From the NCBI GenBank assembly GCA_016195085.1, contig JACQAG010000019.1:1-57992 (forward strand): a stretch of DNA of 57,992 nucleotides. The letters run 5' to 3'. Positions 10,695 through 29,509 of this stretch are shown here, piece after piece (the first letter of the stretch is position 1; the number at the start of each line of letters is the position of its first letter). The stretch is from Pseudomonadota bacterium. GTDB taxonomy: Bacteria; Pseudomonadota; Alphaproteobacteria; SHVZ01. The notes under the pieces are model-generated. The model worked only from the letters and a program-made list of their open reading frames with translations. It made no database searches and had not been told where the DNA came from. Made by a program: the position numbers and the translations under genes.

Positions 10695-11375
10695 TCACCA
10701 TGCCACCGGCGCGCCTTGGAAATCGTAGAACTTTCCGGTATCGGCGAGACCGGCGCGAGCGATCACCTTGCGCATGCCTTTGATGCTGTCGGGAATTGCG
10801 ACCGCAGCCGACGCGCCACCCATATCCGTCTTGACCCACCCTGGATGCAGCAGCAGGCAGGCGATCCCCTTTGACTTGAGGTCGAGGGCAAGGCAGCTCA
10901 CCGCCATGTTGAGCGCGGCTTTGGAGGCGCGATAGGCGTAGCTCCCGCCGCCGTTCTCGGTGACCGAGCCCAACCGGCTGGTGATGAAGACCATCAGCTT
11001 CTTGCCGCTCCGACCGACATTGTCCACCAAGGCCTCGGCAACGCGGAGCGGCGCCACCGTATTGACGCGGAAGGTCTCCTCCCAGGCGCCAAAATCGAGC
11101 GCCCCCAGCGCGCCGTTGCGATCGAGATAGACGCCGGCGTTGTTGATGAGAATGTCGACCGGCATGCGGTCAAGCGCCTTCGCCAAATCGACAACCGATT
11201 GCATGTTGGTGACGTCGGCTTGGTGGATCCGCACGCTGCCCTTCAGGCCCTTGAGCTCGGTAGCCTTGGCAGGATCGCGGACGGCGGCGTGGACGGTCCA
11301 GCCGTCGGCGGCGTAGGAGCGGGAGAATTCGAGACCGAGGCCCCGATTTGCGCCGGTAATCAGCAAGGTTGGCAT
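10695..11375 (-). CDS. SDR family oxidoreductase (C-factor-like)
   Basis: A 226-residue short-chain dehydrogenase. The NAD(P)-binding TGANRGLG motif is at residues 7-14, followed by NNAG, and the catalytic serine lies in the FITSRLGS strand. Catalytic Tyr and Lys are in [12 protein letters not shown], and the C-terminal part has [13 protein letters not shown]. This matches the classical SDR subgroup with CsgA/C-factor-like proteins. The substrate is unknown. It is the last gene before the lower-GC island, and a broken relative lies at the far side of that island (21351-21490) in the same orientation. ATG at 11373-11375. Confidence 0.9.
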
Positions 11376-11751
11376 GATTTGTTCCCCAGGATTGGGACAA
11401 TGCGAAATGAGGTCAGCCCCGACGGCCCGGCGTTCCCGCGCGGCTTCCGTGAACCGCTTACGGCCGATCAGGCACCGAACTCGCAGAGCTTCGCATCACG
11501 TAGCAATTCAACGAGGCTACTATCTTCGGCTACGCTTGGAAACCTCGGCGATCGAGCCCCGTCCCAAACTATTTACCTCAAATGGGAGACTGTCGTCGGG
11601 AACTTTGCGTGGCGCATGTCGCGGCCAAACTCCACTCTTCATTCTAAGTTACCGCTGAAGCGCCGCGCCGTCGGCTACGGATTCGTCGGATCTATGCGAA
11701 CGGTGCAACTCAGCATTTGCCAATGCCGGGCCAACGTGAAGGAAGACAACG
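11376..11751 (+). other. Intergenic region, left edge of the island
   Basis: 376 bases between divergent SDR and dehydrogenase genes. Base composition drops here. The open frames crossing it show no recognisable domain. It must contain both start regions; a ribosome site (AAGGAAG near 11739) precedes the ATG at 11752. No clear promoter or repeat was recognised. Confidence 0.4.
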
Positions 11752-12831
11752 ATGTTGCGGGTGGGGATTGTTGGTTGCGGGCTTGTTGCTCAGTGTATTC
11801 ACTTGCCGACCCTGCGGGAACTTCGGGATCGCTTGATCGTAACCGCGATTTGCGACGTGAGCCGCAGCGTTCTCGATGCGATCGGAAGCGAATGGGCGAT
11901 CCCTACCCGCCTCGAGGACTATCGCGATCTCATCGCTCGCGAGGATGTCGATATCGTCCTCGTGGCGAATCCGCACGTCTTTCACGCCGAGACCGCCATG
12001 GCGGCCATGCGAAAAGGAAAGCATGTTCTCATCGAAAAGCCGATGTGCATGACGGTTGTCGAGGCGGATGCGCTCATCAAGGTTGAGGAGGAGACTGGCG
12101 TAGTCGCGCAGGTCGGCTACAACCGTCGCTACGCGCCAAATCTTGCAGCCGCCGCCGAGGTCGTGCGCGCGCTACCTGGAATACGCCTCGCACGCGTGCA
12201 TGACGTTCTGGGGCGAAATGCCATCATCGTTCCACAGGTCACCAAAGTGATCACACCCTCGGATGCGTCACCGATCGCCACACAGAAATTGGGCGATATC
12301 ACAGCGGCAAAGGTGATCGAAGCAATAGGACCGGCGTCCGCCCTACTGCAGAATGTCTACATGGGATTGGTGGGTCTCAGCAGCCACGACCTTTCGGCCA
12401 TGCGTGCCGTTCTCGGCTTTCCTCAGCGTGTGTTGTTCGCCACCGCCCGTGGTGACGATGGCAGAAGTCTCGCAGCTGCCTTCGACTACGGAACCTATAC
12501 CTGCCTATTCTCCTCCGACATCGACCTGATCCCGCGCTTTGACGCAAACATGGAAGTCTACAGTGCGTCCAAGGTTGTGAGGGTCGAGTTCAACACGCCG
12601 TTCGTGAAGAGCATCCCGGCGACCCTGACGATAACGGATATCGACACTCACGGAATGGCGCGAACCAGCTCGAGTTTCTCATTCCGAGATAGCTTCCTTC
12701 TCGAATGGATTGCTCTGCATGAGACCGTTAGCACCGGCCGGCGGCCGAATACGTCGATCGCCGATGCGCGCCAAGACCTGTTGCTGTTCAGAGATATGAT
12801 CGACCACATGCGCACGAATGGATCGAGTTGA
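11752..12831 (+). CDS. Gfo/Idh/MocA family oxidoreductase
   Basis: A 359-residue NAD(P)-dependent dehydrogenase acting on sugars or cyclitols in the cytoplasm. The N-terminal Rossmann domain has VGIVGCGLVAQCIHLPTL, the family EKP motif at 95-97 (LIEKPM) and VGYNRRYAPN. The C-terminal domain carries SSHDLSAMRAVLGFP, with the histidine position used in catalysis. Substrate is not predictable; relatives oxidise myo-inositol, glucose derivatives or aminosugars. ATG at 11752 has a good ribosome site. It is the leftmost island gene and is convergent with the small IclR-like regulator, so it has its own promoter. Codon use is noticeably less GC-rich than in the leucine genes. Confidence 0.9.
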   Translation: MLRVGIVGCGLVAQCIHLPTLRELRDRLIVTAICDVSRSVLDAIGSEWAIPTRLEDYRDLIAREDVDIVLVANPHVFHAETAMAAMRKGKHVLIEKPMCMTVVEADALIKVEEETGVVAQVGYNRRYAPNLAAAAEVVRALPGIRLARVHDVLGRNAIIVPQVTKVITPSDASPIATQKLGDITAAKVIEAIGPASALLQNVYMGLVGLSSHDLSAMRAVLGFPQRVLFATARGDDGRSLAAAFDYGTYTCLFSSDIDLIPRFDANMEVYSASKVVRVEFNTPFVKSIPATLTITDIDTHGMARTSSSFSFRDSFLLEWIALHETVSTGRRPNTSIADARQDLLLFRDMIDHMRTNGSS

Positions 12832-12966
12832 GAGCGCGACCGGTGGCAAATCCGACTTAAGGGCAGGAATGGGCAGACCGTACAATCGTCGAGACCTTCG
12901 GACGCAGTCAGCCCGATCTCGTCAAAAGCTGGAACCTAGCCACGAACATCGAACGGATCTGCTGCG

Positions 12967-13539
12967 CTAGGCCCGCTGGAATTCACTCGGGTTCCCCTTA
13001 TCGAGCGCGTTTTTCAAGGCATGAGCGACTCGATCGAGGCAGGTGGCGGCCAAAGCGAGATCGGTCTTCTTGGCGCTTGGATGTACGCGCAGCCGCACGA
13101 CCACTCGGCGGCCGTCTTGCGTCCGATGGATTTGCGCTTCAAGAGAACGGAGGCCGAGGACAGAGCGTGTCTCCCCGGTGTCCCACGACGCCCTGCGACG
13201 CACGAGCGCCATTTCCTGGCCATCGGACAGCAGAATGAGCGCAGCCGAAGCGTTGGTGTCGCTGCGAAGCACCGTCAACAGTGGAGCAGTTGGACCCTGC
13301 AATGCTCCAATCCCGTGGCGTGCAAAGCCAAGCCGCGCTGCTTCAGGCCCCGGCGATACCCGACGAGCGCCGTCACGTTCGACGAGCCCGGCGCCCTCCA
13401 AGGCCCGGACGCAGGCGAAGACCGACGAGCGGGGCAAGGCCAGCGCCGCCGCCAGAGCAGACACCGATATCGGGTCACCCTCGGCCAGCTTGACCAGGAT
13501 ACGCCCGACCATAGCCAAGCCGCCCCGACTAGACGCCAT
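12967..13539 (-). CDS. IclR-like winged-helix transcriptional regulator, short form
   Basis: A 190-residue putative DNA-binding protein. Residues about 10-65 fit an IclR-type winged helix (VGRILVKLAEGDPISVSALAAALALPRSSVFACVRALEGAGLVERD). The remaining 125 residues are shorter than the usual IclR ligand domain (whole proteins are typically about 250 residues) and are only weakly recognisable. Its ATG lies inside the 3' end of the fused regulator gene (11-nt overlap), so the two are cotranscribed and perhaps act together on the island. Function as regulator is inferred from the helix-turn-helix and context. Confidence 0.72.
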   Translation of the reverse strand: MASSRGGLAMVGRILVKLAEGDPISVSALAAALALPRSSVFACVRALEGAGLVERDGARRVSPGPEAARLGFARHGIGALQGPTAPLLTVLRSDTNASAALILLSDGQEMALVRRRASWDTGETRSVLGLRSLEAQIHRTQDGRRVVVRLRVHPSAKKTDLALAATCLDRVAHALKNALDKGNPSEFQRA

Positions 13540-14950
13540 CGCGCAGTTCCTGCATCAACGCTGCCGACCGGTTGTAGCGATTGCCGCGATAATGCACGCG
13601 AAACGCGCGCGGGTTGTAAAATTGGCCGATCCCCGTGGCGAGGATCAACTCGTCCGGCAAGTCCCAACGGACATGTTCATCGGCCCACAGGTCGGGTCGA
13701 ACCGAGGTTGTTGCATGCCCGCGCGTGATGACGACCTCCGTTGCGACGTCGACGCGACGCGGAACCCACCGCCCCCTCAGGACATCGAGAAGCACTTCAA
13801 TCGCACGGAGGCCCATGACCGGTGGATAGTCGACCGCGGCAAGCGGCACTCTGTGTCGCACCGCCAGTTTGTAGGTCAGGTTGAGATCGCCGCCGGTGTG
13901 GGGCGGGATGCGGCACAGCGGACCGCCAGCATCGATGCAAGCCATAAGAGAACCGGCGGCCTGAAGCCCGGAATCGCACCACACGCCGCGGATCGCATCA
14001 CCATGTCGCCGCAGCGCCTCGATCATGGCCGCTCGCCCGGCATCTCTCTGCCAAGCAGTCCACTGCACGTCGAGGATCTCGATCCCGGAAAACTCCGCGA
14101 AAACCGACCGCGCGCCTGAAAGCCGGCGCTGGGCCGGCTCCGCCTTCTCATCGCCCGGCAGCAGCAGTACACCTCCCTCCCCACTGAGATATTCGGCGAG
14201 CCACCGGGCCATGGTGCGGCCGATCATCCAATCGTCGCAGGTGACAAAACTGGTGTGGGGAATGGCTTCCGGCAGTCCGCGATCGACCAACACGGTGGGC
14301 ACACCGCGTTCGGCGGCGCGCGCGATGACAGGGCCAACGCGCTCGCCGCCCAAAGCGCTGACGACAAGGCCGTCCACGCCTCCGTCAACCAGCGACTCGA
14401 TATCGGCGATCTGGCGATTGACGTCGTGAGCGGCATGGCGGACGGCGAGGGACGACACCAATTCGCAGCGCTTCGCCGAGCCGAACTCGACGGCGTGAAC
14501 CAGGGCCGTGCGCCACGGACTGTCGAGAGCGGCATTAAGAAATCCGATCCGAAACTTCGGCGTGCGGCGGAACCGCCCGGCATCGGTCAGCATGCATGCC
14601 TGATCGTGGCGCAGCAGGCCGAAGCCATCCTGGCCGATCACCGAGCTCGAGGAGTGGCGGGCGAGCTGCTGCTCGTCCTCTCGTCGCGCCCCAGCCTCGA
14701 AGCGCTGGGCCAGCGCATCGCAAAGCGGCCCGAGGCCGATCCTTCCCCTCTGCGAGGTATCGAGGATATCGCTCGCGGCGAACGTCCTGGCGATGCGATG
14801 CATGCTGGCATGGGGAATATCGAGATTGGCGGCGATTTCCGCGGCGCAGCAGGTGCCGCTCACGGTCCCCATGGTCTTGAGGAGCGCAATTGCGCTGTCT
14901 ATTCCGCGCTTGTACCGCCGGCGCGGCCTGCGCTTTTTCGTGATCGCCAA
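13529..14950 (-). CDS. Fused regulator: IclR-type HTH plus periplasmic-binding-type sensor domain
   Basis: Residues about 14-75 match an IclR winged helix (RGIDSAIALLKTM, AAEIAANLDIPHASMHRIARTF, IGLGPL). Residues about 133-455 form a type-1 periplasmic-binding fold of the ribose/galactose-binding kind (KFRIGFLNAALDSPWRTALV, GVDGLVVSALGGERVGPVIARAAERGVPTVLVDRG, GVLLLPGDEKAEPAQRRLSGA). LacI proteins normally carry a LacI-type HTH on this fold, so the pairing is unusual. No signal peptide is visible, so it should act in the cytoplasm as a sugar-responsive regulator (inference). TTG at 14948-14950 was chosen: GGGGG lies upstream and the residues before it look non-conserved. The open frame reaches 15091, so the start is uncertain by up to 47 codons. 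Confidence 0.75.
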   Translation of the reverse strand: MAITKKRRPRRRYKRGIDSAIALLKTMGTVSGTCCAAEIAANLDIPHASMHRIARTFAASDILDTSQRGRIGLGPLCDALAQRFEAGARREDEQQLARHSSSSVIGQDGFGLLRHDQACMLTDAGRFRRTPKFRIGFLNAALDSPWRTALVHAVEFGSAKRCELVSSLAVRHAAHDVNRQIADIESLVDGGVDGLVVSALGGERVGPVIARAAERGVPTVLVDRGLPEAIPHTSFVTCDDWMIGRTMARWLAEYLSGEGGVLLLPGDEKAEPAQRRLSGARSVFAEFSGIEILDVQWTAWQRDAGRAAMIEALRRHGDAIRGVWCDSGLQAAGSLMACIDAGGPLCRIPPHTGGDLNLTYKLAVRHRVPLAAVDYPPVMGLRAIEVLLDVLRGRWVPRRVDVATEVVITRGHATTSVRPDLWADEHVRWDLPDELILATGIGQFYNPRAFRVHYRGNRYNRSAALMQELRDGV

Positions 14951-15010
14951 GGCGTTACCCCCGCCGGTGATAGTCCGGCTCCCATGAAAGCCACATCGGC
15001 GACGTAAAAT

Positions 15011-15045
15011 GCAATCCGAATTGCTCAAATGCGGGACCCCGTCCC
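15011..15045. promoter_or_regulatory. Two adjacent palindromes, candidate operators of the island
   Basis: Between the divergent regulator and VOC genes lie GCAAT-CCGA-ATTGC (15011-15024) and GGGAC-CCC-GTCCC (15033-15045), both perfect inverted repeats. Placement in the shared control region suggests binding sites for the fused regulator or the small IclR-like protein. Short palindromes can arise by chance, so this is tentative. Confidence 0.4.
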
Positions 15046-15123
15046 GATCATTGCACCCTGGAAGACACGGAGATCGGGGATGATGCGCCAATAGGCCGAC
15101 ACGAGAGTCGATCGGGGAGCGCT

Positions 15124-15582
15124 ATGGCGAGCCAAATCTTCAAGAAAAACAGCATCCTCCACGTCTCACTCGTGTCGAATTCCCTGGACGAATCGATCGC
15201 GTTTCTCACCGGCTTGTTCGACCGCAAGCCCGATCGGATCGGCGGATCGGCCGATCCCGCCGAGGCGAACGCGCAATATCGAGGCGGCCCCTCTCGCGCC
15301 TCCTGTCGCCTCGCGGTGTGGAATTTCGACAACATGTATCTCGAGGTCATCGAGCCGGACAAAGAGCCCAGCGCTTGGCGGGACTATCTGGATCGACATG
15401 GTCCAGGCCTGCATCATATCGCCTTCGAAGTCAGCGACATGCCGGACAAGATCGCCAAGCTCGAGGCGAAGGGGCTGCCCCTCCTGCAATTGGCGGAGTT
15501 CGGCGGCGGTCGTGGGCGCTATGCCTATGTCGATGCCGAACGGCAGATTGGCGCCGCGATCGAACTCTTGGAATGGTACTGA
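15124..15582 (+). CDS. VOC superfamily protein (glyoxalase / epimerase-like)
   Basis: A 152-residue protein with two beta-alpha-beta-beta-beta modules typical of the vicinal oxygen chelate fold. The four metal-ligand positions are plausible: His in ILHVSLV, Glu in YLEVIEP, His in GLHHIAFEV and Glu in AAIELLEWY. The overall look resembles methylmalonyl-CoA epimerase or glyoxalase I relatives, but no reaction can be assigned. It is the first plus-strand gene after the regulator, with GGGGAG before ATG. It is followed after 48 nt by the isomerase gene, so it probably starts the main catabolic operon. Confidence 0.8.
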   Translation: MASQIFKKNSILHVSLVSNSLDESIAFLTGLFDRKPDRIGGSADPAEANAQYRGGPSRASCRLAVWNFDNMYLEVIEPDKEPSAWRDYLDRHGPGLHHIAFEVSDMPDKIAKLEAKGLPLLQLAEFGGGRGRYAYVDAERQIGAAIELLEWY

Positions 15583-15630
15583 AACCGTCAGGCGCCTCGA
15601 ACCGATATCCGGGAAGCTTGGAGTAAGCGC

Positions 15631-16416
15631 ATGGCCGCGGATAAGAGGAAGCCTCCGACACAAATCTCGTTCCAGCTCTACTCATCGCGAAAATTCCCAC
15701 CCCTCGAGCGGCAATTGGAGACACTTGCTCGCATAGGGTACGCCGCCGTCGAGCCGTGGCTACCGGCTTATGACGCCGATCCGGCCGAGTTTCGCCGGCA
15801 GATCGATGCCGCCGGCCTCGCCTGTTTTGGATTTCACATGTCGTTTCCCGGCCTTGTCGACGAGCCCCAGCGGTTCATGGACATGGCGAGGACCTTTGGC
15901 GCGAGCACGCTGATCGTCCCATCCGTGCCGCGCGGAGAGCGCGTCAGGGATGTCGACGGGTGGCGGCGCGTCGGTGACGGCCTTCGCCGCGGCGCCGAGC
16001 TCGCCGATGCGGCGGGGCTGCGGGTGGCATGGCACAATCACGACTTCGAATATGTTCGCCTGGCGGATGGCAAGCGCCCGATCGATCACATCTTCGAGGC
16101 GGCGGGCCCGACGGTCGAGTTCGAGATCGATTGCGGCTGGATCACGCGCGCCGGCACGAGCGTGGCCGACGAGCTGCAGCGCTTCGCAGAGCGCATCACC
16201 ATCATTCAGACGAAGGACATGGCTCCTCTCGGGACCGTCGAAGAGGACGGATGGACGGCGACCGGTGACGGCATCATCGATTGGAAAGCCTTGTGGCCGC
16301 TCTTCCTCTCGACGCCGGTCGAGTACTTTGTCGTCGAACATGACGATCCGGCGGACTGGGCGCGCTTTGCGGAACGGTCGTACCGCTACCTGAAGCGCAT
16401 CATCGACAATGGCTGA
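15631..16416 (+). CDS. Sugar phosphate isomerase/epimerase-like TIM barrel
   Basis: A 261-residue xylose-isomerase-like TIM barrel (AP endonuclease 2 fold). Likely metal and catalytic positions are WHNHDFEY (H135, H137), EFEIDCGW (D167), QTKDM (K195, D196) and VVEHDDP (E236). Relatives include IolE, hydroxypyruvate isomerase and ketose 3-epimerases, all acting on small sugars or cyclitol intermediates. Together with the MocA-type dehydrogenase it suggests oxidation followed by isomerisation, dehydration or epimerisation of a sugar or cyclitol. ATG is preceded by GGAG at a normal distance. Confidence 0.85.
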   Translation: MAADKRKPPTQISFQLYSSRKFPPLERQLETLARIGYAAVEPWLPAYDADPAEFRRQIDAAGLACFGFHMSFPGLVDEPQRFMDMARTFGASTLIVPSVPRGERVRDVDGWRRVGDGLRRGAELADAAGLRVAWHNHDFEYVRLADGKRPIDHIFEAAGPTVEFEIDCGWITRAGTSVADELQRFAERITIIQTKDMAPLGTVEEDGWTATGDGIIDWKALWPLFLSTPVEYFVVEHDDPADWARFAERSYRYLKRIIDNG

Positions 16417-16716
16417 CGCTCTGGCGATCAGCGCCGCCTGTATGGTCATCCTCATCCAGGCGCTTCGATCGGCCTAGAACAGGACCGCCGCGATTGACGG
16501 TCGCGACAGCGAATTGCGCGCCGCGCGCCCGCTGCGATCCGCAGCGCGGCCCGGCGGCACCGACGCCTTCGTTTGCCGCAATCTCTGTCTCAAATCGCGG
16601 ACTGGTGAGCCAACCTCGCGCTTTACCGGTCCGGTGACCCGCCTACGATCGTTGGCACGCCCTACCGACCCGATTGCGCAGGGACGCGGCGACGATACCG
16701 GCACGGAAAATTCGAG
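16417..16716 (+). other. Intergenic gap between isomerase and amidohydrolase genes
   Basis: 300 bases without a convincing gene. It contains a perfect hairpin (see 16530-16546) and a short ACCGG-T-CCGGT palindrome near 16624. The 76-codon minus-strand frame and the 68-codon plus-strand frame across it show no domain. A new promoter for the amidohydrolase-transporter segment may lie here, but no clear one was identified. Confidence 0.4.
16530..16546. other. Perfect 7-bp hairpin in the island
   Basis: CGCTGCG-ATC-CGCAGCG. It lies 114 nt after the isomerase stop. No T-run follows on either strand, so a factor-independent terminator is not supported. It may be an mRNA-processing hairpin or an operator. 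Confidence 0.35.
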
Positions 16717-17982
16717 ATGACTGCCTATTTGTTCAAAGACGTGTGGATTTGGGACGGCGAGCGCGACGACCGATATCCGGGCGAGGTTCTGATCGAGGGG
16801 AACCGGATCAAGTCAGTCGCTAATGGCGCCGATCAGATCGGTGCCGATGCCGCACCGCGCGTGATCAACGGCAATGGAAAGACCTTAATGCCGGGGCTCG
16901 TCGACGGGCACTGCCATCTTTCCTTCGTCGGGCCCACGCGCAATCAGGACCTCGGAGAAATCCCGGTAGAAGAGCATTTGCTGAGGACCTGCCGCAACGC
17001 GACGTTCGTCCTCGAGCACGGATTTACCAGTTGCTATTCCGCCGCTTCCGCCAAGCTCAGGATCGATGTCGTCGTCCGTCAGGAGATCGAGGACGGATTT
17101 CTGGCCGGTCCGCGGTACCGCGCCGCCGGACCGGAGATAACGGTCACCGGCGGCCTCGGCGACGAGCGCAAGGCGCACATGCATGCGGAAAGCTTTGGCA
17201 TGATTGCAGACGGGCCGGACGGCATACGCATGGCCGTCCGCCTGTGCTGCCGCGAGGGCGTCGACAACATCAAGATCAACATCTCCGGCGACGAATTCGT
17301 GAGTACCGCACGCGCCGAGATCGCGTCGATGGGCGAAATCGAGGTCGCAACCGCCGTTGAAGTCGCGCACGAATGGAGCAAGCGGGTGTCATGCCACGCA
17401 AGGGGCGCGGAGTCGGTCAAACGAGCCGTGCGAAACAAGGTCGACTGCATCTACCATTGCGATTTCGCCGACGAGGAAGCTCTCGACATGCTCGAAGGCG
17501 TCAAGGACACCGTGATCGTGGGCCCCGCCTTCGGCTTGGTGCACAACTCGGTATTTGAAGGCGAGATCGCTGGGCTTTCGAAGGAGATTGCGGCGCGGAT
17601 GGGATTGCCCCGCAAGCTCGAGGCGACATGTCGAACCTACGAGCAGATCAGGAAGCGCGGAATCAAGGTAGTGATCGGCGGCGACTACGGATTCAGGATC
17701 ACGCCGATGGGACAGAATGCCAGGGATATCGGGCACTTCGTGAAGTTCTTCGGCTACACGCCGGCCGAAGCCATGCGATGCGCGACGACGGTCGGGGGCG
17801 AATTGATGGGCCACAAGGGCGAGCTCGGCGTCATAAAGGAAGGGGCCTTGGCCGATATCCTCCTTGTCAACGGAAACCCGCTCGAAGACTTGTCCCTCCT
17901 GGTCGGCGCAAAGGCGTTCGCGATGATCATGAAGGACGGAAGACTCCATCGCGATCCGGGATCGAATTGGCGCGCAGGGTGA
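16717..17982 (+). CDS. Amidohydrolase family protein
   Basis: A 421-residue metal-dependent hydrolase with beta-sandwich and TIM-barrel layout. All expected metal ligands are present: HxH (H65, H67 in GLVDGHCHLSF), K186 in NIKINISG (the position of the carbamylated lysine), H227 in SCHARG, H247 in IYHCDFAD and D323 in GGDYG. Relatives hydrolyse cyclic amides, lactams, imidazolonepropionate or dipeptides. Here a lactam, lactone or N-acyl bond in the imported compound is a reasonable guess. Cytoplasmic, with no signal peptide. ATG at 16717 follows a weak GGAAAA/GAG site. The transporter genes follow directly. Confidence 0.88.
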   Translation: MTAYLFKDVWIWDGERDDRYPGEVLIEGNRIKSVANGADQIGADAAPRVINGNGKTLMPGLVDGHCHLSFVGPTRNQDLGEIPVEEHLLRTCRNATFVLEHGFTSCYSAASAKLRIDVVVRQEIEDGFLAGPRYRAAGPEITVTGGLGDERKAHMHAESFGMIADGPDGIRMAVRLCCREGVDNIKINISGDEFVSTARAEIASMGEIEVATAVEVAHEWSKRVSCHARGAESVKRAVRNKVDCIYHCDFADEEALDMLEGVKDTVIVGPAFGLVHNSVFEGEIAGLSKEIAARMGLPRKLEATCRTYEQIRKRGIKVVIGGDYGFRITPMGQNARDIGHFVKFFGYTPAEAMRCATTVGGELMGHKGELGVIKEGALADILLVNGNPLEDLSLLVGAKAFAMIMKDGRLHRDPGSNWRAG

Positions 17983-18025
17983 GGAAGAGGATGCTTGGGC
18001 GCATCGGCCAGGCCGGAGACAAGCC

Positions 18026-18934
18026 TTGACCACGATCGTCGGCCCGCGGCACCGCTTGGGCAGAACGACGCTCGCGCCCTACCTGTTCATCCTGCCGTTT
18101 GCCAGCCTTTTCGCTTTTTTCGTGCTGGCTCCGATGCTCTACGCGGCGCAGCTCAGCTTGTTCCGCCAGACGATCGTCGGCGGAAACCGCTTCGTATGGT
18201 TCGACAACTACGCGCGCGCGCTGGTCGATCCCGATTTCTGGGACGGCGTCAGCAACATGCTGCTGTTCGGCGCGATATTCATCCCGACCCTCATTGCGTT
18301 CGCTCTAGCCGCGGCGCTGATTCTAGATACCGACGTGATCCGCCGAAAATCGCTGTTTCGGATAGGCATCTTCCTGCCATACGCCATTCCGGCGGTGATT
18401 TCGACGCTCCTGTGGGGATACTTGTACGGTCGGAACTACGGCCCCGTCGCTCAGATCGCGAAGGCGCTTGATTTGCGGCCGCCCAACTTCCTTTCCGACG
18501 GCATGATCCTGCCTTCGCTGGCGAATGTCGCGATATGGCAAAGCACGGGCTACTATTTCGTCATCCTCTATGCCGCGCTGCAGTCGATTCCGACCGATCT
18601 CGCTGACGCAGCCGCCATAGATGGGGCCAATCGCTGGACATACGCCTGGCACGTCAAAATCCCGATCATCGCGCCGACGATATCGATCGTGCTGGTTTTC
18701 GCCGTCATCGGGACGCTGCAGCTGTTCAACGAGCCCTATCTGCTGCGGATCGCCGCGCCGGACGTGATCAACGTCCACTTCACGCCGAACATCTATGCTT
18801 ATGGCCTCGCATTCATCAATCACCAATACAATTACTCCGCGGCGATCTCGTTCGCCATTGGGGCGCTCGTCGCGATTCTTTCCTACTTGTTGATCTGGAG
18901 CGTCTCTCGCCGCAGCGGGGGGAAATTGTCGTGA
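18026..18934 (+). CDS. Sugar ABC transporter permease (MalF/UgpA type)
   Basis: A 302-residue inner-membrane permease with about six spans. The EAA loop DLADAAAIDGANRWTYAWHVKIPIIAPTI fits the carbohydrate uptake transporter-1 family. TTG at 18026 was chosen because GGAG stands seven bases upstream and the conserved N-terminal span follows at once. Its stop overlaps the GTG of the next permease (GTGA). Partner of the permease and binding protein encoded downstream; the ATPase is missing from the window. Confidence 0.9.
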   Translation: MTTIVGPRHRLGRTTLAPYLFILPFASLFAFFVLAPMLYAAQLSLFRQTIVGGNRFVWFDNYARALVDPDFWDGVSNMLLFGAIFIPTLIAFALAAALILDTDVIRRKSLFRIGIFLPYAIPAVISTLLWGYLYGRNYGPVAQIAKALDLRPPNFLSDGMILPSLANVAIWQSTGYYFVILYAALQSIPTDLADAAAIDGANRWTYAWHVKIPIIAPTISIVLVFAVIGTLQLFNEPYLLRIAAPDVINVHFTPNIYAYGLAFINHQYNYSAAISFAIGALVAILSYLLIWSVSRRSGGKLS

Positions 18935-19812
18935 CCAAGCCCGGCACGAATGCGGTCAGCTTCAGGCGGACGAAAACCCTGAACACCATCGTTCTGTCGC
19001 TGTTCCTGATCTATTCGCTGCTGCCGATTTACTACTTGGGCATCTCGACGACGAAGAGCAGCCGAGATTTGTATTCGACGTTCGGCCTGTGGTTTTCATC
19101 GGAATTTCACCTCATCGCCAACCTGCAGGAGCTATTTGCCTACGACGGCGGCAGATATCTCCGCTGGATGACTAATTCGATCTTTTATTCCGTGGCTTCG
19201 GCCTCGGGTGCGACCCTGATCGCAAGCATGGCGGGGTACGGGCTCTCGCGATACGAATTTGCCGGCAGGCGCCTGCTCGTCGCGATCGTCATCGGCGCCG
19301 TGCTGATTCCGCAAACGATCATGGTGATCCCTATCTTTCTCATGCTGGCGAAGATCGGTCTTCTCGATTCAGCCTGGGGCTTCATCTTACCGTCAACGGT
19401 CTACGCGCCGGGCGTCTACCTGATGCGTGGCTATATCGACCAAAGCGTGCCGATGGAGCTCATCGAAGCAGCGCGCATGGATGGCGCCAATGAGCTGACG
19501 ATATTCGCTCGGATCGCCTTGCATCTGATGTCACCCGGTCTGGTAACCGTCTTCCTCCTTTCATTTGTGCATTGCTGGAATAGCTACTTTCTGCCGTTGG
19601 TCGTCTTCACCTCGGCCGACAAGTTTCCAATCAATGTCGGCCTCCCAATTTGGTACCAGTACGCAACGCAGGGATCGGGCGGCTCCAGCGGGCAGGGGTT
19701 GTTTACCCTGATCCTGACCGGCGCATTTGTCGGCGTCCTGCCGATCGTCGCAGCCTTTGTGTATCTGCAGCGCTATTGGCAGGGCGGCCTCGCCAGCGGC
19801 GCGATCAAATGA
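18931..19812 (+). CDS. Sugar ABC transporter permease (MalG/UgpE type)
   Basis: A 293-residue second permease of the carbohydrate importer. Six spans are predictable and the EAA loop reads ELIEAARMDGANELTIFARIALHLMSPGL. The GTG start overlaps the TGA of the first permease, so translation is coupled and equal stoichiometry is likely. A family-typical QGLFTLILTGAFVGVLPIVAAFVYLQRYWQGGLASGAIK tail segment marks the C-terminus. After the stop there is a 173-nt gap before the binding-protein gene. Confidence 0.9.
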   Translation: MTKPGTNAVSFRRTKTLNTIVLSLFLIYSLLPIYYLGISTTKSSRDLYSTFGLWFSSEFHLIANLQELFAYDGGRYLRWMTNSIFYSVASASGATLIASMAGYGLSRYEFAGRRLLVAIVIGAVLIPQTIMVIPIFLMLAKIGLLDSAWGFILPSTVYAPGVYLMRGYIDQSVPMELIEAARMDGANELTIFARIALHLMSPGLVTVFLLSFVHCWNSYFLPLVVFTSADKFPINVGLPIWYQYATQGSGGSSGQGLFTLILTGAFVGVLPIVAAFVYLQRYWQGGLASGAIK

Positions 19813-19946
19813 AGAGATCACGCTCCGCATCTGCGTCGGATGGATCGGGACATTGCCGGTTTGGTTGCCAGCATTGCACGGGTCGCGGGATCCGCAGCGC
19901 TGGGAGCGCTCGTTCGAAATTCGACGATGAAGCATCGAGAAACCAA

Positions 19947-19964
19947 CGCCCCTTGCAGGGGGCG
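19947..19964 (+). other. Hairpin before the binding-protein gene
   Basis: CGCCCC-TTGCAG-GGGGCG, a perfect 6-bp stem, ends 21 nt before the GTG of the solute-binding protein gene and just ahead of its ribosome site. Such hairpins between permease and binding-protein genes often stabilise the downstream mRNA so that more binding protein is made; here this is an inference. Confidence 0.4.
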
Positions 19965-19985
19965 GCCAACCAAGGGAGAAGCGCC

Positions 19986-21299
19986 GTGAAGCAGACCAAA
20001 GCCAGCATTATCGGTCGCCGAGACATCCTCAAGACAATGGGAGTGAGTCTCGCATTGCCGGCAGTGTCGATTTTTCCTGGAAGAGCTCGAGCAGCGGAGC
20101 CGGTGACATTGAACATGTGGCAGTGGATTCCTGACTTCGATACCCAGGTAGAGCTGTTCAATAAAGCCAACCCGAACATCAAGCTGGCGCAGCTCAATGT
20201 GGGCGGCTCGGCGGCACAGTCTGTGAAGCTGCGCAACGTCCTCACGGCCAAGACCGGTGGGCCGGATATCGTGATGTTCACCTATGCCCAAGTGAATGGA
20301 TTCGCCCGACTGGGAGCCATGGCCGATCTCACGCCCTTCGGAGCGGCAGATCTAAAGAGCAAGTTCACGAGCTACGCCTGGAATGAATTGAGCAAGGACG
20401 GAAAGATCTACGGCCTTCCCCTCGATTGCGCGCCTTTAGTGCAGGTGTATCGGCAGGATCTATTCGAGCAGTTCAACGTGAAAGTTCCGCAGAATTGGGA
20501 TGAATTCGCCGATGCGGCCATGAAGGTCCACGCGAAGTCGCCGAAGACCTTCTTATCCAATTGCCTGTTCAGCAGAGGCGAGTGGACCATCGCGCAGCTT
20601 TGGCAGATGGGTTGGCGCGGTATCGAGACGAAGGGCGACACGATCAGCATCGAGATGAACGGCAAGATCAGCAAGGATCTTGCAAAGTACTGGCAGGCGC
20701 TCCTCGATGACAAACTGGTGGAGGCGCAGCCCGGCTTCACAACCGACTTCTTCTCGGCCCTCGATGACGACCGCTATTTGGAGATCATCGCGGGATCATG
20801 GTTCCCCAACTATTTCCGCCCGCAAGCCAGGAAGACGGCTGGGAAGTGGCGGGTGGCGGCGGCCCCGCAGGTCAAGAGCGGCAATACCCAGACGGCTTTT
20901 GGCGGCGCCGCTTTCGGCGTGTGGCCTGACACGAAGCACCCGAAGGAAGCGTTCGAGACGATCAAATGGCTGCTCACGGAGCGAAAGCCCACGGAACTGT
21001 ACGTCAACAAGCAGTTCCTGACGCCGACCCTGAACGAGCTCCTCGACGACCGCCCCTTGTTGGACACGGCCTTTGAGTTCTGCGGCGGACAAAAGGTCAA
21101 CGAAGTAGTCTTTGACGCCGCGAAGAAGATCCTGCCGCCGGTCGCGACGGCGCCATTCCATGACTACGTGCTCGAAATCATGAACGACGAGCTGAGCCAG
21201 GCCGCGGCTGGAAAACGGAAGCTGGCCGAGGCATTCGATCGCCTGCAGGACAAGCTGGTAGCATTCGCGAAAGATCAGGGATTCACCGTGAAGACCTGA
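19986..21299 (+). CDS. Sugar ABC transporter substrate-binding protein, Tat-type signal
   Basis: A 437-residue extracytoplasmic solute-binding protein (family 1, maltose/glycerol-phosphate type) feeding the two permeases. The N-terminus has a twin-arginine motif GRRDILK (R11, R12), a hydrophobic stretch and a likely cut after A36 (RARA-AEP). The mature protein shows WQWIPDFDTQVELFNKANPNIKL, TAKTGGPDIVMFTYAQVNGF and GAAFGVWPDTKHPKEAFETIKWL, typical of the family. GTG at 19986 was chosen for its GGGAG site and because the signal peptide starts there; the longer open frame upstream covers the preceding gene antisense or out of frame. Tat export suggests folding in the cytoplasm, possibly with a cofactor or ligand. 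Confidence 0.9.
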   Translation: MKQTKASIIGRRDILKTMGVSLALPAVSIFPGRARAAEPVTLNMWQWIPDFDTQVELFNKANPNIKLAQLNVGGSAAQSVKLRNVLTAKTGGPDIVMFTYAQVNGFARLGAMADLTPFGAADLKSKFTSYAWNELSKDGKIYGLPLDCAPLVQVYRQDLFEQFNVKVPQNWDEFADAAMKVHAKSPKTFLSNCLFSRGEWTIAQLWQMGWRGIETKGDTISIEMNGKISKDLAKYWQALLDDKLVEAQPGFTTDFFSALDDDRYLEIIAGSWFPNYFRPQARKTAGKWRVAAAPQVKSGNTQTAFGGAAFGVWPDTKHPKEAFETIKWLLTERKPTELYVNKQFLTPTLNELLDDRPLLDTAFEFCGGQKVNEVVFDAAKKILPPVATAPFHDYVLEIMNDELSQAAAGKRKLAEAFDRLQDKLVAFAKDQGFTVKT

Positions 21300-21329
21300 T
21301 TCGGGTCAAGGTAGCGGACAGGGATTCAG

Positions 21330-21368
21330 CTCGTCCGGTTGGAAGAGCGTTCAAACCGGCCGGACGAG
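21330..21368. terminator. Candidate terminator hairpin after the binding-protein gene
   Basis: CTCGTCCGG (21330-21338) and CCGGACGAG (21360-21368) form a perfect 9-bp stem 30 nt after the binding-protein stop. The loop is 21 nt and no strong T-run follows, so it may be factor-dependent or only an mRNA 3' stabiliser. Its right arm overlaps the end of the SDR remnant. Confidence 0.4.
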
Positions 21369-21490
21369 TTGACTCTCACGCTGGTTACGACACCTGAGCG
21401 AGGGGTGGGCCGTTTCCCTATCGGCTGAATATAAACGGGTGAATTCCGGCCCCAGCCCGCGACTCGCACCGGTTACGAGAAGAGTAGCAT
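21351..21490 (-). pseudogene. SDR oxidoreductase remnant (5' fragment with frameshift)
   Basis: On the minus strand, from the ATG at 21488-21490, codons read T-L-L-V-T-G-A-S-R-G-L-G-P-E-F-T-R-L-Y-S after a single-base deletion just after ATG. This mirrors the intact SDR at 10695-11375 ([19 protein letters not shown]) for about 37 residues, including the cofactor motif. The bases before the ATG are also similar in both. Similarity then stops and the frame ends at a TGA. The encoded piece lacks the catalytic Tyr-Lys, so it is a dead fragment of a paralog, in the same orientation as the intact gene but on the other side of the island. Confidence 0.7.
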
Positions 21491-21550: not shown

Positions 21551-21964
21551 CTAGCGCCACGCGCCGATGACCACCCCCATGAGCGCCAGATAGATAAGCT
21601 GATAGCCGGCATCGATCACGAAGGCCTGCAGCGATTTACCGGAATGTATGTTGGCGATGAGGCCGAAGGGGGCGGCAAAGCCGATCCAGACGGAGAGACC
21701 GAGCCCGAGCCCCTGCTGCCATCCTGCGGCGCCAGTCCATTCGATCAACACGGCGATCGCCAATGCGATGACGATTTGCGAGAGGAACGTCACCACCAAG
21801 GCACGCGCCGCATTGGGGCCCCGCTGCATCTCCTGAATCTTTTCCGGCGTGATGCCACTGGATTTAATCCAAGCATTCTTGAAGAGGCCGCCATACCAGG
21901 CCCAACCCAGCATGAACGATGCGAAGCCAGCGAGGAGAACGGCGAGATAGTTCACATTGGCCAT
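21551..21964 (-). CDS. DUF1761 family membrane protein
   Basis: A 137-residue protein with about four predicted membrane spans and the DUF1761 pattern: an N-terminal AVLLAGFASFMLGWAWYGGLFKNAWIK, and a C-terminal half with WIGFAAPFGLIANIHSGKSLQAFVIDAGYQLIYLALMG. The function of the family is unknown. ATG at 21962-21964 was chosen because upstream codons overlap the preceding gene. It lies 26 nt downstream of the isovaleryl-CoA dehydrogenase stop on the same strand, so the two are probably cotranscribed. Confidence 0.85.
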   Translation of the reverse strand: MANVNYLAVLLAGFASFMLGWAWYGGLFKNAWIKSSGITPEKIQEMQRGPNAARALVVTFLSQIVIALAIAVLIEWTGAAGWQQGLGLGLSVWIGFAAPFGLIANIHSGKSLQAFVIDAGYQLIYLALMGVVIGAWR

Positions 21965-21990: not shown

Positions 21991-23163
21991 CTAAGCCGTT
22001 TCCTTGAACAGCTCCCGGCCGATCAGCATGCGGCGGATCTCCGAGGTGCCGGCGCCGATCTCGTATAGCTTCGCATCGCGCAGCAGACGCCCGGTCGGGT
22101 ATTCGTTGATGTAGCCATTGCCGCCCAGGCACTGGATCGCCTCGAGCGCCATCCAGGTCGCCTTCTCGGCAGCATAAAGGATGGCGCCGGCCGCATCCTT
22201 GCGCGTGGTCTGGCCGCGATCGCAGGCCTTCGCCACGGCGTAGACATAGGCCTTGGCGGCATTCATCGTCGTGTACATGTCGGCGAGCTTGCCCTGCATC
22301 AGCTGGAACTCGCCGATCGGCTGGCCGAACTGCTTGCGCTCATGCACATAAGGAAGCACCGCGTCCATGCAGGCCTGCATGATGCCGATGGGGCCGGCGG
22401 CGAGCACGGCGCGTTCATAGTCGAGCCCGCTCATCAGCACGTTGACGCCGCCGTTCACCTGGCCCAGCACATTCTCCTCGGGCACCTCGCAGTTCTCGAA
22501 GACGAGCTCGCAGGTGTTCGAGCCGCGCATGCCGAGCTTGTCCAGCTTCTGCGCCGTAGAGAAGCCCCGCATCCCCTTCTCGATGATGAAGGCGGTGATG
22601 CCGCGCTGCGCTGCTTCCGGATCGGTCTTGGCATAGACGACGAGCGTATCGGCGTCCGGGCCGTTGGTGATCCACATCTTCGAGCCGGTGAGGACATAGC
22701 GGTCGCCCTTCTTGACCGCCCGGGTCCGCATGCTGACGACGTCGGAGCCGGCTCCGGGCTCGCTCATCGCCAGGGCCCCCACATGGGTCCCCTGGATCAG
22801 CTTCGGCAGGTACTTCTGGCGTTGCGCCTCGGTGCCGTTGATGCGGATCTGGTTGACGCAGAGATTGGAATGGGCGCCGTAGGAGAGGCCGACCGAGGCC
22901 GATGCCCGGCTGATCTCCTCCATCGCCACGCAATGCTCCAGATAGCCCATGCCGGCGCCGCCATACTCCGGCCCGACGGTGATGCCGAGCACCCCCAGCG
23001 TGCCGAGCTTGGGCCAGAGATCCATGGGAAAGGCGTTCGAGCGGTCGATCTCGGCGGCTCTCGGCGCAATCTCGTCCGCGGCAAAGCCGCGGACCGTGTC
23101 GCGCAGCATCTCGGCGGTGTCGCCCAGATCGAAGTCGAGACTGGGAAAGTCATTGGCTGCCAT
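21991..23163 (-). CDS. ivd: Isovaleryl-CoA dehydrogenase
   Basis: A 390-residue acyl-CoA dehydrogenase for the first committed step of leucine catabolism, isovaleryl-CoA to 3-methylcrotonyl-CoA, which MCC then carboxylates. The catalytic glutamate sits internally in [15 protein letters not shown] (E250), the feature that separates isovaleryl-CoA dehydrogenase from other family members. [40 protein letters not shown] and the C-terminal [21 protein letters not shown] also match. ATG at 23161-23163. It belongs functionally with the genes at 1167-8333, but is now 10 kb away. Confidence 0.95.
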
Positions 23164-23350
23164 GGTGATATCCTCGATCCCGCACCGCCCCGGCCGAGTC
23201 CGGAACAGCCCCCCCCGAAGCCCAAACGCGGGGAAACTATACACCTTCCGAGCGCTTCTATCGGAGCGTGCGGTAAGCGCCTATGATGAATTGGGCAGGC
23301 ATGCCCAGCAATCAGCCTACCAATCAACCGACAAAGAGCGGGAGGTCACA

Positions 23351-29422: not shown

Positions 29423-29509
29423 TGGTGCGGTCGAGAAGACTCGAACTTCCACGGGGTTGCCCCCACAGCGACCTCAACGCTGCGCGTCTACCAGTTCCGC
29501 CACGACCGC
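29423..29509 (-). tRNA. tRNA-Leu (anticodon GAG)
   Basis: The minus strand folds into a class II tRNA of 87 nt including an encoded CCA. Acceptor GCGGTCG pairs with CGACCGC. The D arm is GCGGAACTGGTAGACGC. The anticodon stem CAGCG/CGCTG carries loop TTGAGGT, with anticodon GAG reading CUC and CUU. The variable arm is GGGG-CAA-CCCC, and the T arm GGAAG-TTCGAGT-CTTCT. Discriminator A and the long variable arm agree with leucine. Confidence 0.96.

Follow-up and report, generated by a model that had tools for sequence, protein, structure and literature searches.

Background

The TIM-barrel enzyme AtOGE (structure 8BVK), encoded in a four-gene glycoside operon of Agrobacterium tumefaciens, is an O-glycoside beta-eliminase that acts on 3-keto-glycosides, and its H189A variant has an activity below 0.1% (PMC10628242). 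The prolidase-like amidohydrolases of cog1228 include Xaa-Pro dipeptidases, the Cc2672 carboxypeptidase, ochratoxinase and ADH3. Relatives of both groups are encoded together in the locus described here, a block of nine genes in contig JACQAG010000019.1 of the alphaproteobacterial assembly GCA_016195085.1 (lineage SHVZ01). The window that was analysed is this one whole contig (57,992 nucleotides) of a 4.8-Mb assembly in 95 contigs. A first-pass annotation had viewed the block as a catabolic island placed within a leucine-degradation cluster.

We find that the block is a horizontally acquired insertion between an acyl-CoA dehydrogenase gene and a short-chain dehydrogenase/reductase (SDR) gene. 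On balance, we favor its interpretation as a catabolic module for the import, sensing and breakdown of a sugar-like compound with an amide- or lactone-type bond. Three specific findings stand out as the strongest: the empty insertion site with its scar, a regulator pair that is unseparated in the loci examined, and a His-to-Gln split in the TIM-barrel family.

Results

Insertion site and composition

In the window, ~10.6 kb lie between the dehydrogenase gene (21991-23244), which is termed IVD-like (isovaleryl-CoA dehydrogenase-like) without confirmation of that name by a curated model, and the SDR gene flanking the block on the other side (10695-11375). The family- and order-level genome comparison comprised seven genomes in all. 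In the sister-genus genomes G003 and G006 the same two genes are adjacent, with gaps of 5 and ~37 bp. In the loci L079 and L080 there is nothing between these two genes. The gene for a DUF1761 membrane protein (21551-21964, minus strand; DUF1761 9.4e-29) is located within the inserted interval of the window, beside the dehydrogenase. At the left end of the interval, a 66-bp stretch (11440-11505, minus strand) aligns to positions 21995-22085 with one 25-bp deletion and represents a decayed duplicate of the dehydrogenase 3' end. None of 1000 dinucleotide shuffles reached the score of this alignment, and the minus-strand translation of the remnant, made by eye, is LLRDAKLCEFGA, which was compared with the C-terminal end of the intact dehydrogenase. 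The remnant resembles a scar left when the end of the target was duplicated and, together with the empty sites, it supports the block as a foreign insertion.

The core enzyme of the block is an amidohydrolase. It is missing from the six other genomes of the same family and, at E 1e-130, was found in just 5 among 384 further genomes of the class; close relatives carrying the block in the same place, the observation that the first-pass annotation had named as contrary to its proposal, were thus not seen in the family. The proposal of an insertion was borne out by the empty sites and the scar, but the ancestral unit shown to be interrupted is the IVD-SDR pair. Genes for carboxylase, crotonase and HMG-CoA lyase are found further left of the SDR in the window, and only a dehydrogenase-SDR-dehydrogenase trio is contiguous in the sister genomes, where no methylcrotonyl-CoA carboxylase genes were found within 13-16 kb beyond the trio; the interruption shown is therefore not one of the whole leucine cluster. 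No integrase or transposase is present among the annotated genes of the block, and the sole tRNA gene, at 29423, provides no tRNA target at the block. A different low-GC insert of ~900 bp occupies the same IVD/SDR junction in genome G004 (L081:3055-3981, G004:C145), and this junction may be an insertion hot spot.

The lower GC content attributed to the block holds for part of it. The GC content is 57-59% for the permeases, binding protein and MocA genes and 64-67% for the flanks; the two regulators, at ~65%, are host-like. Measured against the flanking genes, codon adaptation ranges from 0.50 to 0.68 in the island and from 0.68 to 0.80 in most flanking genes, with one at 0.62. All nine genes are present as intact open reading frames, as the first-pass annotation had described them.

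Distribution of the module

Conserved gene order in other genomes had been proposed as a check on the island, and such conservation was indeed found: a scan of species genomes yielded 61 related loci, with recurring partner genes. The amidohydrolase occurs at 45-85% identity in ~60 named genomes, distributed patchily over the alpha- and betaproteobacteria and also present in Bacillota. Its partners in the related loci include an alpha/beta hydrolase (29 loci), a fusion regulator of the type found in the window (25 loci), a XylX-like FAH protein (14 loci) and an aldehyde dehydrogenase (13 loci), and the importer is of the CUT2 type in ~30 loci and of the CUT1 type in seven. The XylX/KDP-dehydratase-like FAH and aldehyde dehydrogenase genes adjoin the amidohydrolase in roseobacters and Acidisoma. 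The CUT1 loci, from Rhizobium and its relatives, Bosea, Caballeronia and Paraburkholderia, are closest in content to the window. In the amidohydrolase tree the transporter type switches between CUT1 and CUT2 at least three or four times, and sequences from Burkholderiales and Bacillota nest among those of alphaproteobacteria; this pattern indicates that the spread was horizontal.

Several loci extend this picture. Two amidohydrolase copies with an alpha/beta hydrolase are present in Ammoniphilus sp. YIM 78166 (Bacillota; L036, L045), nested among alphaproteobacterial sequences. Homologues of the amidohydrolase with 43-56% identity are carried on large plasmids (L064, L066, L067, L068), among which a set consisting of a GntR/FCD regulator, FAH protein, alpha/beta hydrolase and amidohydrolase recurs in Azospirillum, Paraburkholderia and Pantoea; these plasmid-borne copies gave no clue to the substrate. 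Two CUT2 operons (L125:2648-10752 and L126:4660-12860) encode a binding protein 58% identical to that of the amidohydrolase operons; they lack the amidohydrolase and instead contain what appear to be a histidinol-dehydrogenase-type enzyme and a thiamine pyrophosphate-dependent enzyme, and they gave no firm clue to the substrate.

Amidohydrolase

The core enzyme (16717-17982, plus strand; Amidohydro_1 4.7e-18) has the features that define cog1228, namely HxH, a carboxylated Lys, two His and an Asp. The residues H65, H67, K186, H227, H247 and D323 are invariant in all 49 aligned amidohydrolases, one of which is a distant paralogue. The structural model (predicted local distance difference test, pLDDT, 90.6) has its top fold matches among prolidase-like structures (3mkv, 3feq and 2qs8), and the nearest relatives of the enzyme among solved structures are prolidase, arginine carboxypeptidase and ochratoxin amide hydrolases. 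The host genome encodes a second cog1228 amidohydrolase, 33% identical to that of the island (L002, G000:C88:2020-3228).

Regulator pair

The fusion regulator (13529-15019, minus strand; true start probably near 14945) joins an IclR-type helix-turn-helix (HTH) to a Peripla_BP_4 sugar-sensing domain (2e-34), which replaces the missing IclR-type effector domain. Of four fusion orthologues scanned, three have HTH_IclR above its cut-off, as does the short IclR-like HTH partner encoded in the window (12967-13539, minus strand; HTH_IclR 5.9e-08), and the model of the fusion protein (pLDDT 79.5) comprises N-terminal HTH helices and an RbsB-type domain. The two genes overlap by 11 bp in the window, and a homologue of the short partner directly follows the fusion gene in each of the 25 other loci, in many with a 4-bp overlap. 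In relatives, the sensor domain is ~40% identical to the CUT2 binding proteins of the same operons, which suggests that the sensor was captured from the binding protein of the transporter. No operator palindromes were found between the fusion regulator and VOC genes. A description of this IclR/periplasmic-binding fusion architecture was not found in the open-licence literature, which is a partial sample.

TIM-barrel enzyme and accessory genes

The best solved relative of the TIM-barrel protein (15631-16416, plus strand) is AtOGE (8BVK, 9e-36). The first-pass annotation had called this protein a TIM-barrel isomerase; its kinship is with a 3-keto-glycoside beta-eliminase and not with a xylose or inositol isomerase, and the xylose isomerase reading was rejected on this basis. 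Seven of eight compared AtOGE active-site positions are kept, and the metal ligand His189 is replaced by Gln193. The replacement splits the family, with Gln at this position in all seven island-type copies (the window and six island-linked homologues) and His in all eight homologues unlinked to the amidohydrolase. As AtOGE loses almost all activity through the H189A exchange, its reaction cannot be assumed for the Gln-type enzymes. In six CUT1 loci, the TIM barrel (56-58% identity) is accompanied by a Gfo/Idh/MocA protein that is not an orthologue of the one in the window.

The Gfo/Idh/MocA oxidoreductase of the window (11752-12831, plus strand; Pfam GFO_IDH_MocA) has an NAD-binding half whose best solved relatives are DgpA1/DgpA, C-glycoside 3-oxidases. 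Its homologue was found in only one other of 372 class genomes (48% identity), beside an AtOGE-like TIM barrel. In that cluster (L099:1-7071), the MocA-like gene is accompanied by a Gfo gene, the AtOGE-like TIM barrel and another TIM barrel, and apparent LigA/LigB ring-cleavage subunits are encoded beside them; it is a possible phenolic glycoside cluster. The VOC/glyoxalase-like protein (15124-15582, plus strand; Glyoxalase_4 7.9e-15) has no homologue in the related loci. Both proteins had been listed as members of a shared gene set; neither is conserved with the module, and they are probably accessory genes outside its core.

Importer and missing components

Two CUT1-type permeases with BPD_transp_1 domains are encoded at 18026-18934 (A) and 18931-19812 (B), both on the plus strand, and their homologues in the Rhizobium, Bosea, Caballeronia and Paraburkholderia loci are 53-55% (A) and 49-56% (B) identical. 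The sugar-binding protein (19980-21299, plus strand; SBP_bac_1 1.4e-23), with its start inferred at a GTG before KQTKASIIGRRDILK, has a GRRDILK Tat-type leader and homologues of 37-48% identity in the CUT1 loci. Its gene is followed by a terminator-like palindrome (21323-21375) with 16-nt arms that are 88% complementary. The block contains no ATPase gene, and the CUT1 importer is incomplete there. The host genome outside the island includes 23 matches to UgpC/MalK-type ATPases, the best 56% identical to the ATPase of the Rhizobium locus, and one XylX-like protein (59% identity); a close copy of the alpha/beta hydrolase was not found in this genome, the best match having 32-37% identity over part of its length. 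The module is therefore partial in the window, with neither an ATPase nor an alpha/beta hydrolase.

Discussion

Proposed pathway and alternatives

The protein families point to a possible sequence that begins with import and sensing and continues through hydrolysis and oxidation to an elimination or isomerisation. The CUT1 permeases and the Tat-exported binding protein would import a sugar-like compound with energy from a UgpC/MalK-type ATPase whose gene lies outside the island, and the same or a related compound would bind the sensor of the fusion regulator, which may control the divergent operon with its short partner. The amidohydrolase is predicted to cleave a C-N (or lactone C-O) bond and the MocA-type dehydrogenase to oxidise the sugar part, after which the AtOGE-like TIM barrel would act by beta-elimination or, with its Gln ligand, by isomerisation or epimerisation. 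The product would enter host acid-sugar metabolism, as suggested by the XylX-like dehydratase and semialdehyde dehydrogenase genes that adjoin the amidohydrolase in relatives. Several observations weigh against this interpretation. The alpha/beta hydrolase common in relatives is missing from the island; neither MocA nor VOC is a conserved partner of the module, and the CUT1 loci use a dissimilar Gfo/Idh/MocA protein; the Gln that replaces AtOGE His189 speaks against the reaction being identical; and the sister genomes represent another genus, so that loss of the block there is conceivable.

The similarity of two enzymes to glycoside-active proteins could also reflect an OGE- or levoglucosan-type deglycosylation island, in which oxidation of a glycoside at C3 by MocA would be followed by beta-elimination of the aglycone by the TIM barrel, and the released aglycone would be the substrate of the amidohydrolase. 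The best matches to AtOGE and the DgpA enzymes are consistent with this scheme, as are the L099 cluster, where the sole class homologue of MocA adjoins two TIM barrels, one of which is AtOGE-like, and a Gfo protein, and the six other CUT1 loci that pair the TIM barrel with a Gfo/Idh/MocA gene. We nevertheless consider it unlikely, since the His189 ligand is Gln in all island-type enzymes, enzymes for the hydratase and reductase steps found in the known four-enzyme pathways (PMC7676230, PMC10628242) are absent, and neither this TIM barrel nor MocA is present in most amidohydrolase loci. A standard operon for inositol or rhizopine, of the IolG/IolE or MocABC type, was suggested by weak matches between MocA and IolG and between the TIM barrel and IolE, but was rejected as very improbable: the scores fall far under the curated cut-offs (94.7 of 355 and 50.1 of 290, respectively), and the known pathway does not include this amidohydrolase or these regulators.

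The incomplete gene set raises the question of whether the island is a decaying patchwork, a partial and possibly non-functional copy of the complete module found in Rhizobium. The missing ATPase and alpha/beta hydrolase, the latter without a close copy in the genome, and the replacement of MocA and addition of VOC would fit such decay, but intact reading frames in all genes, conserved catalytic residues and several suitable ATPases elsewhere in the genome make it improbable. A slimmer chance still is given to a dipeptidase or N-acyl-amino-acid hydrolase with the sugar genes as a separate neighboring system. The closest solved relatives of the amidohydrolase favor this explanation; however, the enzyme keeps sugar-type importers and a sugar-sensing regulator across many orders, unlike passenger genes. 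Returning to the catabolic module, a more far-reaching version, which we offer tentatively as a possibility of some doubt, would be an undescribed catabolic route whose substrates are sugar amides, lactams or lactones, with a sensor captured from the cognate binding protein that works with a short co-translated IclR partner, and a beta-eliminase-like TIM barrel that catalyses a new reaction at its altered metal site.

Approximately 60 species carry this amidohydrolase without an assigned function, many with the linked module, and the cultured hosts Kaistia hirudinis, Rhizobium lusitanum and Mameliella sediminis make the pathway testable. As the fusion sensor resembles the binding protein of the transporter, a ligand found for them could show which compound is common to regulator, transporter and pathway, and the His-to-Gln switch provides a clean case for how a 3-keto-glycoside eliminase changes its reaction.

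Comparison with known systems

No described pathway with this gene combination was found in the open-licence literature. The observation in the first-pass annotation that the gene mix matches no standard operon thus stands, and the homology to a characterised pathway that it had named as counter-evidence did not emerge. The locus has partial likenesses to several systems. XylX-like and aldehyde dehydrogenase genes end the operon in marine relatives, as in a Weimberg-type pentonate pathway (XylX and ketoglutarate semialdehyde dehydrogenase), but they are not in the island of the window, and no sugar dehydrogenase or aldonate dehydratase was recognised in the clusters examined. With the AtOGE operon (PMC10628242) the block shares the TIM-barrel family and a nearby oxidoreductase; it differs in having an amidohydrolase and an importer, and in lacking a recognised flavin glycoside dehydrogenase or hydratase-type second TIM barrel. 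The fusion regulator has the winged helix of IclR proteins and an RbsB-type sensor as in LacI and CUT2 proteins, but here the two parts form a single protein, and an overlapping gene encodes another, short IclR-like protein. The amidohydrolase has the fold and all metal-binding residues of the cog1228 enzymes, with only 22-29% identity to them in the fold comparison, and its family is distinguished from known members by its own motifs (KINISGDEF, YHCDFADEEA and GGDYGF) and by its genomic link to sugar importers. The locus is a genuine, mobile and undescribed combination of known protein families, and a variant of known sugar-catabolic operons.

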